DNA from: Oscillospiraceae bacterium | GTDB lineage: Bacteria; Bacillota; Clostridia; Oscillospirales; Acutalibacteraceae | Length of the DNA: 43,772 nt | Assembly (NCBI GenBank): GCA_031282735.1 | Contig: JAITDE010000100.1 | Location: forward strand, 1 to 43,772 | Reading direction: 5' to 3' | Part shown: positions 10,338-21,940 of the stretch, piece after piece | Layout of the letters: every line of letters starts with the position of its first letter | Position numbering within the stretch: position 1 is the first letter of the stretch | The notes under the pieces: model-generated | The model's input: only the letters and a program-made list of their open reading frames with translations | Told to the model about the DNA's origin: nothing | Database searches by the model: none | Made by a program: the position numbers and the translations under genes

Positions 10338-10498
10338 ATGCGTAACCTTCTGAAGAAGGAAAAATATGCTTTGCACTTTTGATGCCGAATCGCAGTTCGG
10401 CGCGGATATCAACACAATACGATGCCTGAATTGATGTGATCAGTTCGGGCGCGTGAGCTTGCTTGCGCTCGACCAAACGACCTGATAGGAGTATTCAC

Positions 10499-12850
10499 AT
10501 GAAACATAAAAAGCGCAAGGATGCCGCAAAGGCGAAACGCCGCGGCACTTTGCCCAAAAACGTTTTGAATTTGTTGGAATCCCAAAACCTGCGCACGGAT
10601 GATTTTATCTTTTCCGCCGTCGGCGACATGGATAACGACGGCAACTACTGCGCCAATTGGCTGGCGTTCGACGACAAAGGGCTTTACATCGCTTTCGGCA
10701 CGGAAGAAACCGTCAAGAAAAAGAAACGAAAATTCCCCGAAGCGGCGGTGAAACTCACAGGACTTTCGGCATTGCCGCTGGAAGATGTTGAAGAACTGAA
10801 AATTGAACGCTATGTGACCACGGGGCGGCTGATTGCCGTCGAAAAAGGCGAGGAACGCCCGCTCACACGGTTTTCGATTGGCAAAACGGGCGATATTCAA
10901 AAATTCGCGGATTGTTTCAACGCCAAAATCAACGGAAAAGCTCTTGCGTCTTGGCTCACGGTGTTTGACGACACGCTCTATTGCCCCAAATGCGGGGAAC
11001 GCTATCCCGATTCCCGCAAAGTCTGCCCCAACTGCGTCAAAAAAAGTTCAACGATCAAAAGGTTGTTCGGGTTTTTCAACGGGTTCCTCCCGCAAATGGG
11101 ATTGATTCTGTTGCTGCAAATTATTGCGTCCTGCTTCGGCGTGATATTGCCCAAATTCAGCACGGAGATGCTCTTCGACGACGTGCTCAACGCCGACAAC
11201 CCCGATTCGTCTGAGGCAAAACTTGCCGCGCTGGGTGTACTCGTGCTTATGCTCATCGGCATTCGCGTGGCGGATCTCCTCTTTCGCCTCGGCTTTGAGT
11301 GGATTCTCACAGGCGTGATGCCAAAGATGATCTACAACATCAAAGTGCAGATTTTCACCTCGATGCAGCGGCTCACGGTCGGATTTTATTCCTCCAAACA
11401 AACGGGGCAATTGATGGACCGCGTCACGGGTGATGCCAACAACATCTATTGGTTCTTTGTGGACGGCGCGCCGTTTATCGTGATGAACGCCGTGCGGATG
11501 ATCGGCATTTTGCTTTTGATGTTCTTGATCAGCTGGAAACTGTCACTGCTCACGCTGCTGTTGTTGCCGCCCATTGTCGCCTTGGCTGTGTTCGGCGATT
11601 CCATTTTCCGCCGCCTGCACCACCGCATCTGGGCGCAAAACGCGCGGATGACCTCCATGCTCAGCGATAATATCAACGGGCAACGGGTGATCAAAGCGTT
11701 CTCGCGGGAAAACGCGGAACTCGAACGTTTCTCCACCATCAGCCGCAACGTGCGCGACGCGCAATTGGAGCAGGCGAACAAAGAAAACACGCTCTTCCCG
11801 CTCATGACGGCACTCGTTTTGATTTTGAGCACATTTGTGCTGGTGGTCGGTGCGCGCTTCGTGATCGGCGGCGAAATCACCATCGGTCAATTGCTGACTT
11901 ACACGGTTTATTTGACCATGATACAAGGACCGATTGAGTTCTTCATGTGGGTTTTCAACTGGTGGGCGCGCGCGGTGGACAGCGCACAGCGTCTGTTTGA
12001 AATCATCGACGCAAAGCCGGATATCACGGAACAAGACAATCCAACAATACTCAATCCGTTTCGCGGCGATATTGAAATCAGCGAATTGGAGTTTGAGTAT
12101 GAACCGGCCGTGCCGATCATCAAAAAAATCTCTCTGCGTGCCGAGGCGGGTAAAATGCTCGGCATTGTGGGCAAAACAGGCGCGGGCAAAAGCACCATCG
12201 CCAATTTGATCTCCCGCCTCTATGATCCAAAAGCGGGCGTGATACGTATTGACGGCACGGACATAAAGGAGCTTTCGTTTGCGCAACTGCGAAAAAACAT
12301 CGGCTTGGTGTCGCAGGATATCTATTTGTTCACAGGAACGATTGCCGACAACATCCGCTACGCCAACATCGGCGCGAGTTACTCTGAAGTGATTGCGGCG
12401 GCAAAGGCGGCATCGGCGCACGATTTCATCCTCAAACTTCCCGATGCCTACGAAACGCGCGTGGGCAACGGCGGGCAATCGCTATCGGGCGGCGAAAAAC
12501 AGCGCATATCCATTGCAAGGGCCGTTCTGCAAAATCCCAAAATATTGATTCTGGACGAAGCGACCGCCGCTATGGACACCGCAACTGAACGCAGTATACA
12601 GGAATCCTTGCGCCAACTCAAAGCGGGACGCACGACCATCGCAATTGCGCATAGACTCTCAACCCTGCGCGACGCCGATTATCTCGCGGTCGTCGACGAC
12701 GGGACGTTGGTGGAATACGGCACGTTTGCGGGGTTGATTCAACAAAAGGGCGCGTTTTATAAGCAATACAAAATCCAATCGCAGTCGTTGGCGGCGGTAT
12801 CCATTATCGGCGAAGAAAGTACCGTTCAAGCAGACAAAACGGACGAATGA
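10499..12850 (+). CDS. ABC transporter, fused permease/ATPase, with N-terminal extension and zinc-ribbon-like Cys4 motif
   Basis: 'YCPKCGERYPDSRKVCPNC' before the TMD; Walker A 'GKTGAGKST', signature 'LSGGEKQR', Walker B 'ILILDEATAAMD'. Start at MKHKKRKD. Confidence 0.92.
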   Translation: MKHKKRKDAAKAKRRGTLPKNVLNLLESQNLRTDDFIFSAVGDMDNDGNYCANWLAFDDKGLYIAFGTEETVKKKKRKFPEAAVKLTGLSALPLEDVEELKIERYVTTGRLIAVEKGEERPLTRFSIGKTGDIQKFADCFNAKINGKALASWLTVFDDTLYCPKCGERYPDSRKVCPNCVKKSSTIKRLFGFFNGFLPQMGLILLLQIIASCFGVILPKFSTEMLFDDVLNADNPDSSEAKLAALGVLVLMLIGIRVADLLFRLGFEWILTGVMPKMIYNIKVQIFTSMQRLTVGFYSSKQTGQLMDRVTGDANNIYWFFVDGAPFIVMNAVRMIGILLLMFLISWKLSLLTLLLLPPIVALAVFGDSIFRRLHHRIWAQNARMTSMLSDNINGQRVIKAFSRENAELERFSTISRNVRDAQLEQANKENTLFPLMTALVLILSTFVLVVGARFVIGGEITIGQLLTYTVYLTMIQGPIEFFMWVFNWWARAVDSAQRLFEIIDAKPDITEQDNPTILNPFRGDIEISELEFEYEPAVPIIKKISLRAEAGKMLGIVGKTGAGKSTIANLISRLYDPKAGVIRIDGTDIKELSFAQLRKNIGLVSQDIYLFTGTIADNIRYANIGASYSEVIAAAKAASAHDFILKLPDAYETRVGNGGQSLSGGEKQRISIARAVLQNPKILILDEATAAMDTATERSIQESLRQLKAGRTTIAIAHRLSTLRDADYLAVVDDGTLVEYGTFAGLIQQKGAFYKQYKIQSQSLAAVSIIGEESTVQADKTDE

Positions 12851-12867
12851 CGAAAGGAGCGAACTTG

Positions 12868-13401
12868 ATGTCGCTTACAATAGAAAATCTGGAAAAAGAA
12901 AACACGAAAAAAATGGAAACAACGTTCACCGATCCCGCGGCATGTGTGTTTTTCAAAAACCCAAACGGCTTTTTGGGGTTGACAATCGGCGACGCCGTGC
13001 ACAAACGTGTGCAGCTACGCCGTGCGCTACCTTTCAGCGCGCCCGCCAAATATGTTTTCGTGCTGGACATGGACGACAAAGAACTTGCCGTTTTGGAGGA
13101 TCTCGCCGCGCTCAATGCCGAAAACCGCGCCTTGGTTGACGAAGAACTCGCCATGCGCTACTATTACCCCGAAATCACCCAAATCAAATCTGTTAAAGAC
13201 AAAAACGGCGCACACTATTTTGAATTAATGATCGGCAGCGTGAAGAAAAATATTGCCGTCAAGGATCTTTCAAAAAACCTGAAACAGCTTGAAAACAATA
13301 CCGTAATTATCATTGACGTCGACGGCAACCGTTACTTCATACGCGACGTACTCAAAGTGCAACGCAAGAGTTTGCGCGCACTTGAGCCGTACCTGTATTG
13401 A
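12868..13401 (+). CDS. DUF1854-like protein
   Basis: Small protein between two ABC exporter genes; 'DPAACVFFKNPNGFLGLTI...VQLRRALPF', 'LEDLAALNAENRALVDEELAMRYYYPEI', 'IRDVLKVQRKSLRALEPYLY' fit DUF1854. RBS AAAGGAG before MSLTIENL. Confidence 0.75.
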   Translation: MSLTIENLEKENTKKMETTFTDPAACVFFKNPNGFLGLTIGDAVHKRVQLRRALPFSAPAKYVFVLDMDDKELAVLEDLAALNAENRALVDEELAMRYYYPEITQIKSVKDKNGAHYFELMIGSVKKNIAVKDLSKNLKQLENNTVIIIDVDGNRYFIRDVLKVQRKSLRALEPYLY

Positions 13402-13425
13402 TCGCCCCAAAGGAGGGAAAATCAA

Positions 13426-15612
13426 ATGACGGCTTTTCAACAAACGGTCACATTCGACCGTGCGCCCGACGGGCAAATATGCGAAGGCAAGCTCATGTTC
13501 CGCAACGATACGCTGCTTTGCATCCAAAATGGGCACAGCACAACGTTTACGCTGAAAGATATCGCGAAACTCCAGCAATACACCGACGTCGGCTGCGCCC
13601 GCCTAGAGATCCGCGCCAAAACACCGGACGGCGGGGAATCGCCTCCCTGCAACAACATCTTGGTTTGCAGGTTTTCGATGACGTACGCGGAGGAAATCGG
13701 CGACTTATGCAAGATGGTGAACCACTGGATCGACACGGGGGAATACCCGAAAGAAAAGGAAATTCCAGCACGGCATTGCGAAAAATGCGGACGCAGTTTT
13801 TTGCCGGGCATGCGCGTTTGCCTGTACTGCACGGACACAAAACGCATTTGGAAACGGCTTTGGGCTTTGCTCGCGGGCAGAAAACATTTGTTTTTTATCT
13901 CGGCTGTTTTCATGATTCTGTTCAATCTCTGCCAGCTTGCCGCGCCTTTACTGACCCGCCAGATGCTGGACAGTCTGCTCATCCCGACACTGGAGGGTAT
14001 CCCCACTGTTCTGCCGTTTGGTTGGAGCGTGACGCACGCGCTGACAATGTGCGGCATTGCCATCGGCTTGGGCTATGCGCTCGGGCAAATGTGTCTTGGC
14101 TTCTCCAACCTTATAGCACGCCGATTGGGCGCGGGATTCACCAACCAATTGCGTTGCCTCATCTATGACAAAGTCCAAAATTTGTCGATCTCCTCCATGC
14201 AGAACCATGAGGCGGGCGATTTGATGCGCCGTGTGTCGGAAGACACCGATCAAGTGTATGATTTTATGATAGGCATGGGGCGGGCTTGCATCGAAAAAAT
14301 ACTGATGTTGCTGATCGTCGGCGCGATCATGTGCGTCACAAGCCCGCTTTTAACGCTAGTTGTGTTTGTCCCCGTGCCAATCACCCTGTTTTTCTACAAC
14401 CGATTTTGGCCTGCTTCCGCGCGCCGTTACAACAAAAGTCTCCGCTACTTTGGGCGGGAGAAAACTGTTCTGCGCGATATCATCAAGGGTATCCGCGTGG
14501 TGAAAACCTTTGGCACGGAAGCCCGCGAAATCGCGAAATTCGACAAAGTGAGCGGCCAACTGTGCCGCGCCCAAACCATTTCGGAACGATTTTGGGTGTT
14601 GCTCTTTCCGAACATCCGCTTGATTTTGGCAATTTCAGAAACACTCGTTTGCCTTGTTGGCGGACGGATGGTGCTCCAAGGCACACTTTCGGTCGGTTCA
14701 CTCCTGCAATTCACGTTGCTCACAGGATCGGTTTTTGAGCCAATCCGCTGGATGAGCTTTGCACCGCAGGCAATCTCCCGCACAAGCGCAAGCCTAATCA
14801 AGATGTTCGAAGTGATCGACGAAGAAAACACCGTGCCGCTGGTCGACACGCCCGTCACCCCCGCAATCAACGGCGCGATCGCGTTTGACGGGGTGCAGTT
14901 CGGCTACAAATCGTTTGAGCCTGTACTCCAAAACATCAACATCAAAATCCAACAGGACGAAATGATCGGTTTGGTGGGGCATTCGGGCGCGGGCAAATCG
15001 ACGATGATCAACCTGATGATGCGGCACTACGACGCGGATATCGGCGCGATTCGGATTGACGGCACGGATATCCGCGCGTTTGATTACAACTATCTGCGCG
15101 AAAACATCGGCGTGGTGTTCCAGGAGACGTTCCTTTTTTCCGGCACGGTTTTTGAGAACATCGCCTATGCCAAACACGACGCTTCGCCCGAAGCCGTCTT
15201 CCGCGCGGCAAAACTCGCCAATGCCCATGATTTCATCTTGCAACTGCCCGATGCCTACAACACCATTGTGGGCGAGGATGGGCACACGCTCTCGGGCGGT
15301 GAACGGCAGCGTGTGGCAATCGCCCGCGCAATTTTGAAAGATCCCAAAATTTTGATTTTGGACGAAGCGACTAGCGCGCTCGATCCCGAAACGGAGGGCG
15401 TGATTCAGGAAGCGTTGCAGCGTTTGGTGAAAAACCGCACAACCATCGCCATTGCCCACAGGCTGTCGACGCTCCGTTATGCGGACCGTCTGGTGGTGCT
15501 GGACCACGGAAAAATCGCCGAAGTCGGCAGCCACAAAGAGTTGCTGGAGCAAAAGGGCATTTACTACGGGCTTGTGACGGCTCAGCGGCAGATGAACGCG
15601 GCGAAGCGTTAG
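13426..15612 (+). CDS. ABC transporter, fused permease/ATPase, second of the pair, with N-terminal extension and Cys4 motif
   Basis: 'HCEKCGRSFLPGMRVCLYC', Walker A 'GHSGAGKST', 'LSGGERQR', 'ILILDEATSALD'; RBS AAAGGAGGG. Confidence 0.93.
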   Translation: MTAFQQTVTFDRAPDGQICEGKLMFRNDTLLCIQNGHSTTFTLKDIAKLQQYTDVGCARLEIRAKTPDGGESPPCNNILVCRFSMTYAEEIGDLCKMVNHWIDTGEYPKEKEIPARHCEKCGRSFLPGMRVCLYCTDTKRIWKRLWALLAGRKHLFFISAVFMILFNLCQLAAPLLTRQMLDSLLIPTLEGIPTVLPFGWSVTHALTMCGIAIGLGYALGQMCLGFSNLIARRLGAGFTNQLRCLIYDKVQNLSISSMQNHEAGDLMRRVSEDTDQVYDFMIGMGRACIEKILMLLIVGAIMCVTSPLLTLVVFVPVPITLFFYNRFWPASARRYNKSLRYFGREKTVLRDIIKGIRVVKTFGTEAREIAKFDKVSGQLCRAQTISERFWVLLFPNIRLILAISETLVCLVGGRMVLQGTLSVGSLLQFTLLTGSVFEPIRWMSFAPQAISRTSASLIKMFEVIDEENTVPLVDTPVTPAINGAIAFDGVQFGYKSFEPVLQNINIKIQQDEMIGLVGHSGAGKSTMINLMMRHYDADIGAIRIDGTDIRAFDYNYLRENIGVVFQETFLFSGTVFENIAYAKHDASPEAVFRAAKLANAHDFILQLPDAYNTIVGEDGHTLSGGERQRVAIARAILKDPKILILDEATSALDPETEGVIQEALQRLVKNRTTIAIAHRLSTLRYADRLVVLDHGKIAEVGSHKELLEQKGIYYGLVTAQRQMNAAKR

Positions 15613-19172: not shown

Positions 19173-19328
19173 CTAACAGCGCAACAGGCGGATGAGTATC
19201 ACGAGTGCGCAAAAAATCACAAGAACAAGCACGAACACCGCAACCGACGGCACGACAGCTGCCAGCAAAAGCCCCAAAACAAACGCCGCCAGCAACGGTC
19301 CAACGCTTTTCCCCTGCCCTATCCGCAT
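19173..19328 (-). CDS. Small membrane protein (51 aa)
   Basis: Manual translation MRIGQGKSVGPLLAAFVLGLLLAAVVPSVAVFVLVLVIFCALVILIRLLRC*; two hydrophobic segments; absent from ORF track. Confidence 0.55.
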   Translation of the reverse strand: MRIGQGKSVGPLLAAFVLGLLLAAVVPSVAVFVLVLVIFCALVILIRLLRC

Positions 19329-19397
19329 GTTCTCACCCCTCAACTGTTGCTACTGCATTCTATTCGCGGCAAAGTCTTTTGGTGATTCATCCAAAAT

Positions 19398-19431
19398 GCC
19401 CCCAGCCCGCCCTGATGGAGGGGATGGGGGC
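19398..19431 (-). terminator. GC-rich stem-loop after the heptad-repeat gene
   Basis: Minus strand GCCCCCATCCCC...GGGCTGGGGGC followed by ATTTT. Confidence 0.5.
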
Positions 19432-19477: not shown

Positions 19478-20674
19478 CTACGCCCGACATGATTTTTCGG
19501 CGACCTGAACAATTGGCTGAACAGGATCAATCGCCGCCGCGGATACGTCAATTGCCGCTTGCCGGGGCAAGATTGGCCGCGGCAACGTCAAATCGACATC
19601 CGGAACAGACAAGTTGACCGGCGGCAACGTGATATTCGGGCATGCCAACGCGGCACGGATCGGTTGCGTGGAAACATACAGAGGATCGGGCACGGATTGC
19701 ACCGACGGCAATTGCACATCCGCATTCGGCATCGCCAAATGGATATCCGGAATTTGGATATCGATAGCGGGAGCTTCCATGCGCACTTTCGGAAGCGTTT
19801 TGTCGATTGCGGGGATTGCCACGTCAATTTCGGGCAGCTCGACATCGATCGGCGGAATATCCAGCGCAATTTGCGGCAACGGCGCTTCGATGGCAGGCAA
19901 GGTGAGGTTCACGTTGGGCGCGGCGATATTCACATCCGGCAAAGCAAGATTGACCGTTGGCATGGACAACTCCACATCCGCCATATCCAAGTTGACATCG
20001 GGGATGGCAAGATCAATCGTTGGCAGCGTAACATTGACTTCCGGCAATTCCAAACTCACGTTCGGCAACTCCACATTCAAATCCGAAACTTCCACGTCCA
20101 CATCGGGAATACTGACGCTGATTTCAGGCAGTTCCAAGTTGACGGGCGGCATTGACATGTTGATTTCGGGCAACGCAAGCTGAACGTCGGGCATGCTCAT
20201 CACAACATCGGGAATCGAAACATTCACGAATGGTTGACTGACGTTCAATTGCGGCTGAGACACATGCAATGCCGGCTGTGTCAAGTTGACGAGAGGAGGC
20301 GTCACATTCACTTTGGGCGGTTTCACGTTGATTTGCGGCTGTGCGACGTTCACCTTCGGCGGCGTTACGCTGATTTGCGGTCTGGTCACGTTGATTTTCG
20401 GCTGGGTCACATTCACTTTTGGTTCAGCGACGGTGAAACATGGCTGCGAAACGCGCACTTGTGGCTGCGTAAAATGAACCTCCGCATCGCGAACGACAAG
20501 TTCGGGCTGATTGAATTCCAGTTCAGGCGCGGCGTAATTGACTGCGGGCTGCAAAACGATGGGTTTCGCAAGCGGTATCCGCAAATCCGCTTGGGGATTG
20601 TCGTATTGGCAAACGTTTGAAAGAATTCGTATAAATTGTTTTCCTTGCTCTTCGGTGATTGCATAACGATACAT
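19478..20674 (-). CDS. Heptad-repeat protein (P-x-[VI]-[ND]-[VL]-x-x, 40 consecutive repeats)
   Basis: Single ORF; 'PKVNVTQPKINVTRPQISVTPPKVNVAQPQINVKPPKVNVTPP...PEINMSMPPVNLELPEISVSIPDVDVEV'. Confidence 0.85.
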   Translation of the reverse strand: MYRYAITEEQGKQFIRILSNVCQYDNPQADLRIPLAKPIVLQPAVNYAAPELEFNQPELVVRDAEVHFTQPQVRVSQPCFTVAEPKVNVTQPKINVTRPQISVTPPKVNVAQPQINVKPPKVNVTPPLVNLTQPALHVSQPQLNVSQPFVNVSIPDVVMSMPDVQLALPEINMSMPPVNLELPEISVSIPDVDVEVSDLNVELPNVSLELPEVNVTLPTIDLAIPDVNLDMADVELSMPTVNLALPDVNIAAPNVNLTLPAIEAPLPQIALDIPPIDVELPEIDVAIPAIDKTLPKVRMEAPAIDIQIPDIHLAMPNADVQLPSVQSVPDPLYVSTQPIRAALACPNITLPPVNLSVPDVDLTLPRPILPRQAAIDVSAAAIDPVQPIVQVAEKSCRA

Positions 20675-20825
20675 AGTCTTTGACCAGTCGGGACAGACTG
20701 GTTTTCCTCACTTTCGGTGATATTGAACGGACAAGAAAGACAAGCCGTTCGCTACACTATATGCGAACAGCTTGTATGTGTTCCAAATATCACAGGCAAA
20801 AAACGCCCGAAAATCCCGCGCCTTT

Positions 20826-21863
20826 TTATTGAGCCTCGGCCAGCAATTCGGTTGTGCTCAAATCGGCGCTTGCACACCAAAATTGATTGTCCCGCACATA
20901 ATACACCCAACCATCGGCGACACCGACCACGCTTTCGCAAGGGATTTTTTGAAGCATCGTGTAGTCTCTGTTGGTGTCTTTTTCAAGATTTTGCAGTTTG
21001 AATGTCTTGAATACTTCGTCATTTTCGGTATAAACGCAATTGACCGTGCCGCTATCCACGGCGATTGCGTACCATGACTTGTCGGTTTCAATGGGTAGCG
21101 GCAAACAGTACAATATACCCATCGTTTTTTCCGACACCACATAAGCGCGATTGGCGGCATCAAGCTCCGTTTGGAATTGATCCGGCAGAACGAACGGCTT
21201 GCGCGCCAAGTGACCGTTCTGCGTGCCGTAGATAAAATCGACCGTTTCGCTTGCGGTGTCAAAAAGCCATCCATCGGCAAGGCGTTTTACAAGTTCGGCT
21301 TCCGCCGAATCGCCGTCAATCATTGCCGTCGTCTCCCGCGGATACTCCGCGGTCAAATCCAGCACGGCGCACCGTTTTTTGCCGTAAGTATAGAGCTTCC
21401 GCGCTGTGGAAGCAATATAGTAACTGTCGATCGGCTTATCAGTCAGCAGTTGTTCATCCGCAGGATTTTCCGCGTTAAATCGATAGAGCTTTCCGTCCGT
21501 TCGTATATAGTACACAAACAGTCCGTCCGCCTGAAGCCGATGCAGACCGGCATCGGCTTGCAATTCTTCCAAATCCGCGCCGCTTTCGGGGCGAACGCGA
21601 TGAAGCCGGATCGTATCATCATCGGCGTTTGCCAAAGTATAATACACAAAACCATTGGTCATGCAACATTCGTGGACATCGTTTGCGATTAACTTTCTTT
21701 GCACGTCGCCGTATTTTTGATACAGTGCGCCGTTGAACGTGAAATACAAGTAACCATCGACGAGTTGGATCGACATTGGTTTTGTTTGCTCGGGTTTTGC
21801 GCATGCCGAAAACAGCAAGGCGGCGGCGACCGCAAGCGCAAACAAACGCGGCAGCTTTTTCAT
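20826..21863 (-). CDS. Putative lipoprotein, DUF5050-like
   Basis: 'MKKLPRLFALAVAAALLFSACAKPEQ' signal with lipobox; repeated 'VYYIRTDGKLYRFNAE'-type beta segments. Confidence 0.65.
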   Translation of the reverse strand: MKKLPRLFALAVAAALLFSACAKPEQTKPMSIQLVDGYLYFTFNGALYQKYGDVQRKLIANDVHECCMTNGFVYYTLANADDDTIRLHRVRPESGADLEELQADAGLHRLQADGLFVYYIRTDGKLYRFNAENPADEQLLTDKPIDSYYIASTARKLYTYGKKRCAVLDLTAEYPRETTAMIDGDSAEAELVKRLADGWLFDTASETVDFIYGTQNGHLARKPFVLPDQFQTELDAANRAYVVSEKTMGILYCLPLPIETDKSWYAIAVDSGTVNCVYTENDEVFKTFKLQNLEKDTNRDYTMLQKIPCESVVGVADGWVYYVRDNQFWCASADLSTTELLAEAQ

Positions 21864-21940
21864 GCAATCCCCCAAAATCTAATGTCCAATAAAATCTTAT
21901 AAAATCTTATAAAGAAAAAACGCAAAAGCAGGGTGTTCAA

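Follow-up and report, generated by a model that had tools for sequence, protein, structure and literature searches.

The gene described here lies on the minus strand of a 43,772-nucleotide stretch of an Oscillospiraceae contig (JAITDE010000100.1; hereafter the window) and encodes, from an ATG start codon, a protein of 398 residues with 59 prolines (15%) and a single glycine. It is present in one copy in its genome (1.79 Mb, 98.6% complete). Downstream lies groES-groEL, and upstream are a DUF5050-like protein, a weakly matching peroxidase-related protein, coaBC and type III pantothenate kinase, so that the neighbours are housekeeping genes and the context is not that of a phage. In eight congeners, other genes are found upstream of groES. 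Since the gene is placed between two hairpins (Table 1), it is probably monocistronic. The ATG has no Shine-Dalgarno sequence close by; a GAGG lies 31 nt upstream, and looping-out of the 7-bp hairpin between the two may bring it to ~11 nt from the start codon as a ribosome binding site. Ribosome binding sites looped out by a hairpin are described for some T4 genes. A sigma-70 promoter scan at the gene gave no site, and an Rfam search of the window gave no match.

Table 1. Features of the heptad gene and its flanks (positions in the window)
Feature	Positions	Strand	Basis
CDS, 398-aa heptad-repeat orphan protein	19478..20674	-	ORF list and codon use
Non-repeat head, residues 1-42, MYRYAITEEQGKQFIRILSNVCQYDNPQADLRIPLAKPIVLQ; sole predicted helix at 8-23, low confidence	20549..20674	-	sequence and AF2
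Zone 1 (residues 43-147; heptads 1-15): net charge +2, with a hydrophilic residue or Pro (Q/P/R/D/E) at position 7	20234..20548	-	sequence
Zone 2 (residues 148-329; heptads 16-41): net charge -26, with a hydrophobic residue (L/I/M/V/A) at position 7	19688..20233	-	sequence
Residues 330-398: slip by one at 331, good units at 351-364 (PPVNLSV PDVDLTL), non-repeat tail ending in KSCRA	19481..19687	-	sequence
Long-stem hairpin followed by a U-rich tail, 5' of the heptad gene; probably terminates the DUF5050-like gene	20740..20775	-	fold
GAGG (20706-20709) and a hairpin of 7 bp (20683-20702) shortly ahead of the ATG	20683..20709	-	sequence and fold
GC-rich hairpin after the stop codon, then CATTTT; possible terminator	19398..19431	-	sequence

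The adjoining DUF5050-like gene (20826-21875, minus strand), probably encoding a lipoprotein, is a second poorly conserved gene, with no more than weak matches in congeners and none in genome_contigs. Between the heptad gene and groES, a 56-residue hydrophobic ORF (19173-19343, minus strand) has no Pfam match and could encode a small membrane protein. Elsewhere in the window (10463-15612, plus strand), two adjacent ABC transporters flank a DUF1854 protein; for all three, the best NCBIfam models are 'cyanophycin metabolism-associated', with matches far below the cutoffs.

Residues 43-329 (287 residues) form a continuous series of 41 heptads, with no insertion or deletion; a preliminary description, made from the letters of the window, had recognised the unbroken register and counted 40 units. 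Proline opens 38 of the 41, the exceptions being AEVHFTQ, SDLNVEL and ADVELSM, and 41 of the 59 prolines fall into one mod-7 class, where shuffling the residues 20,000 times gave at most 20. Position 3 is V/I/L/F/A in every unit (41/41), position 5 is V/L/M/F/I/Y/A in 39/41, and position 4 is N or D in 24/41 (N 17, D 7). The hydrophobic fraction at positions 1 to 7 is.05/.17/1.0/.07/.95/.24/.63 over all units and.04/.15/1.0/.08/.92/.27/.96 in zone 2. Reading by eye revealed no signal peptide, transmembrane segment or catalytic motif in the 398 residues, which agrees with the preliminary description on the first and last of these.

The boundary between the two zones falls exactly between units 15 and 16 (PQLNVSQ / PFVNVSI). 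With P scored as non-hydrophobic, position 7 is hydrophobic in 1/15 units of zone 1 and in 25/26 of zone 2 (Fisher 6e-9), and the net charge passes from +2 to -26. The best breakpoint scores 8.2, compared with at most 3.5 in 1,000 shuffles of the units. The switch in charge and side chains is therefore sharper than had been claimed; two distinct zones are there, but to call the early one 'basic' is slightly strong, as its net charge is +2 and it opens with acidic or neutral units. No higher-order period was detected up to lags of 6-12 units, save that zone 2 shows a weak trend at two units (fraction 0.0165 of the shuffles, in one out of 12 tests). Lag 3 is not above the shuffles, so a three-unit super-period is not seen.

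Several frames are open on both strands of the gene because of the 21-nt period. Codon use in the minus-strand heptad frame fits that of the genome's genes (0.141 nats/codon; two genes nearby, for comparison, give 0.08 and 0.22), whereas that of the plus-strand ORFs overlapping it does not (0.017-0.047 nats/codon). At the protein level the heptad units are 30% identical and at the DNA level 47%, and no two of them have the same DNA. Neighbouring units use the same codon for the same residue in 35 of 98 cases, where random pairing predicts 38.2. As this sharing is not above random, the repeat does not stem from a fresh DNA duplication or slippage; the heptad pattern is old or built by selection, and probably kept by selection at the protein level. 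We take the ORF to encode a real and strikingly regular orphan repeat protein.

Searches with the full protein gave no believable relative among 60 relatives, and none was seen in 13 congeners; nor did a 42-column repeat profile (A1) give one among ~1,000 genomes in overlapping sets (150 family, 396 order, 392 class and 399 phylum genomes). The head alone (residues 1-45) has no relative in 398 genomes of the family set. The protein has no match in genome_contigs or PHROGs and nothing meaningful in the PDB, profile search included; a search of E. coli DNA gave no match, and literature searches found no description of the heptad repeat. In Pfam, no family scored above its gathering cutoff, so that the match to a characterised family envisaged in the preliminary description was not found; the herpesvirus gp350 C-terminal family (PF20678), at 22.3 bits against a cutoff of 26.4, is probably driven by composition.

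Other candidates were rejected on inspection. The match in G044 is a periodic-Pro frame containing stops, those in G884 are interrupted by stops, that in G458 is antisense to a pyrD-like gene, and those in G551 and G590 contain no heptad protein. Matches on Streptomyces and Burkholderia plasmids are simple 7-residue DNA repeats, and those in Deinococcus and B. wiedmannii are antisense to annotated genes. The match in G997 (L053:1447-1677, contig C11) is an apparently intergenic tandem repeat that reads LPSLDFSPPSLNLT in one frame. This repeat shows that short DNA repeats can mimic the heptad. By sequence, the protein is an orphan among the genomes, phages and plasmids searched.

Among annotated phages, the only group that matches the whole protein is formed by fifteen records of Prevotella Lak megaphages (MK250023, MK250016 and 13 more). 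The Lak protein, unannotated and 1366-1387 residues long with TAG read as Q (L031:1165-5265 in MK250023; L035:1168-5331 in MK250016), also carries, in its middle, ~41 heptads of the form P-[E/D]-[M/F]-N-[L/Y]-x-x that follow one another without a gap. The heptad columns of the two proteins agree best at zero shift, also when Pro is left out (0.767, compared with at most 0.537 in other registers). Unlike those of the window, the Lak heptads alternate in pairs (PEMNLDK / xDxNYVE, e.g. PEMNLDK PDQNYVE), and their position 7 is K/H/E. The Lak head is a phage domain of 570-571 residues, whereas the head of the window protein has 42 residues and no family matches, and only the Lak protein continues after the heptads with a run of 14-residue repeats (NTSLPDMDMTYLNT-like). 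The two proteins are ~20% identical. Because profile A1 matches the Lak heptads at no better than E 0.14, convergence is likelier than homology or descent; for the same reason, the genome surveys made here would miss look-alikes that distant. PHROGs and Pfam gave only sub-threshold matches for the Lak protein. Its head domain has a stretch in common with proteins of the jumbo phages PAU, pT24 and PTm1, and the relative in PTm1 lies beside a gene annotated as baseplate hub/tail lysozyme, which makes a virion role of the Lak protein plausible.

How such a chain may be organised was approached with AF2. The single sequence gave a pLDDT of 33.7; an in-register alignment of four segments of ten units each gave a pLDDT of 70, but a pTM of 0.14 and no assigned strands, and Foldseek with the low-quality model returned nothing. 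An extended structure of the beta type, suggested earlier alongside a solenoid-like rod, suits the regular amphipathic alternation, but AF2 gives no confident fold.

Our preferred reading, to which we assign a probability of roughly 0.4, is that the protein is a cytoplasmic, low-complexity, self-associating structural or scaffold protein that would work by its shape and not by catalysis. The cytoplasmic location is proposed because no export signal was seen. Each heptad, P1-x2-phi3-[N/D]4-phi5-x6-(x/phi)7, could form a two-residue turn at P1-x2 (often P-D, P-E or P-N) followed by a five-residue strand at positions 3-7. In a hairpin with such two-residue turns, residue 7 would pair with residue 3 of the next unit on the same side of the sheet, and positions 3, 5 and 7 of all units would therefore lie on one face, opposite positions 4 and 6. 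Zone 2 would then be a sticky arm, whose continuous hydrophobic face, ~26 units long, and acidic polar side would lend themselves to face-to-face packing with another copy or to packing on a hydrophobic surface, while zone 1, with its polar position 7, would be a soluble, hydrophilic arm, and the head (residues 1-42) may anchor or nucleate. We infer the strand/turn geometry, the self-association and the structural role from the sequence pattern; among geometries that would bring 3, 5 and 7 of all units to one face, a P-x turn with a five-residue strand is the simplest, and a beta-arc solenoid would have this effect as well.

Several observations argue for this structural role: the near-perfect alternation within each unit with P at each reset, the gap-free register over 287 residues, a pattern free of fresh slippage and probably kept at the protein level, codon use like that of the genome and unlike that of the antisense ORFs, the single Gly and the lack of a visible export signal. 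By analogy, the in-register heptads of Lak in a probable virion part point the same way. Against it stand the AF2 models and the empty Foldseek search, a Pro content that is also typical of disordered or extended spacers, the absence of a detected ortholog among the genomes searched, and a strand/turn model drawn from the pattern only.

Nearly as likely, and a serious contender, is that the protein is an intrinsically disordered, extended scaffold or entropic spacer. Even Pro spacing would keep the chain open, the heptads could serve as short linear binding sites or membrane-contact patches, and the zones would have different partners, with the long tail of periaxin or the central repeats of AHNAK as analogues. 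The 15% Pro, the low-confidence AF2 model and the in-register AF2 chain without assigned strands fit this view, as does the PEVK-rich pentapeptide region of periaxin, which is expected to be extended or disordered (PMC7072810). However, 80/82 cells at positions 3 and 5 hold a hydrophobic residue across the 287-residue block, a strictness that a mere spacer would not need, and position 7 switches in a block.

We consider it unlikely that the protein is an intertwined homotrimeric beta-fibre or a small-coil beta-solenoid rod in which each unit makes one side of a triangular prism. Phage needles are built in this way from 8-residue units, and left-handed beta-helices from 6-residue units. All units are equivalent and free of insertions, and similar heptads occur in the Lak protein, whose head relative adjoins the baseplate hub gene; but lag 3 does not exceed the shuffles and only the weak two-unit period of zone 2 is seen, Gly is almost absent, no PDB profile match was obtained, and the neighbours are housekeeping genes outside a phage context.

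A species-specific spore coat or mother-cell structural protein is, if anything, slightly less probable. SpoIVA and Spo0A are encoded in the genome, so the organism can probably sporulate, and spore coats hold many lineage-specific, low-complexity cytoplasmic proteins. A spore-envelope role had first been suggested by a SpoVM-like ORF nearby, yet a SpoVM-like word search and a search for the short pattern M[KR]..P[KR].G both came back empty; consensus scans at the gene showed no sigma-E-type site and no sigma-K-type -10, and no sporulation-specific gene is among the scanned neighbours, all of which weakens the suggestion.

That the ORF is no gene, or a decaying or noise ORF held open by a 21-nt DNA repeat, is very improbable: its orphan status, its weak Shine-Dalgarno and the several frames left open on both strands would allow it, but the units differ in DNA, codons for equal residues are redrawn at random, and codon use is genome-like on the minus strand only.

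We find the protein of interest for its strict pattern without recent duplication, its sharp zone switch at one position and its in-register look-alike in a megaphage. A repeat so regular, and not the product of fresh DNA duplication, calls for a definite architecture, and the family libraries, the structure archive and the related genomes that were searched offer no explanation. It is conceivable, though on balance we doubt it, that repeats of the form P-x-phi-[N/D]-phi-x-x make up a structural class with more than one origin (in the window orphan, in Lak virions and perhaps in AHNAK), folding into an amphipathic meander or prism in which position 7 determines the stickiness, and here into a zoned, self-assembling cytoplasmic rod or sheet. 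If folded, the protein would define a minimal beta unit of seven residues in which a single position switches solubility, useful for fibre design and for interpreting similar megaphage and AHNAK-type blocks; if disordered, it would clearly exemplify a heptad scaffold in bacteria.

Coiled coils share the period of seven with the window protein, but its hydrophobic residues at 3, 5 and (7) are not 3-4 spaced, and 59 Pro, in nearly every unit, leave no continuous helix. A left-handed beta-helix of hexapeptides does not fit the seven-residue units, the missing three-unit period and the lack of a Pfam match. Functional amyloids of the Curli/Fap type have imperfect repeats rich in Gly and Gln/Asn and carry a Sec signal peptide; the window protein has 1 Gly in 398 residues and, by eye, no signal peptide.

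The tail of a Bacillus conjugation transmembrane protein of the pLS20_p028 family (e.g. WP_243821217.1) also runs through dozens of Pro heptads without a gap (PTVQGSA PTVSQPA), and tblastn matches it to the window protein at 1e-10. Unlike the window heptads, its units are near-identical, rich in Gly/Thr/Gln, not hydrophobic at position 5 and borne on a transmembrane protein; this tail looks like a flexible linker. On the B. thuringiensis plasmid p133753 (L029:202-4152), a membrane protein of the same family has >40 Pro heptads in its C-terminal tail.

The central repeats of AHNAK and the PEVK-rich region of periaxin share with the window protein short Pro-spaced units that alternate between hydrophobic and polar residues. 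For AHNAK, this likeness is drawn from the general pattern of its units. As the preliminary description held, it is an analogy only: the head of the window protein has 42 residues, and a Pfam scan of the protein found no PDZ domain. AHNAK is a 700 kDa protein with a PDZ head and repeat units of ~128 residues (PMC10682155), and higher-order repeats of that length are absent from the window protein, whose whole block spans 287 residues. The PEVK-rich region of periaxin consists of short pentapeptide repeats rich in Pro and Val; its unit has five residues (PMC7072810), whereas that of the window protein has seven.
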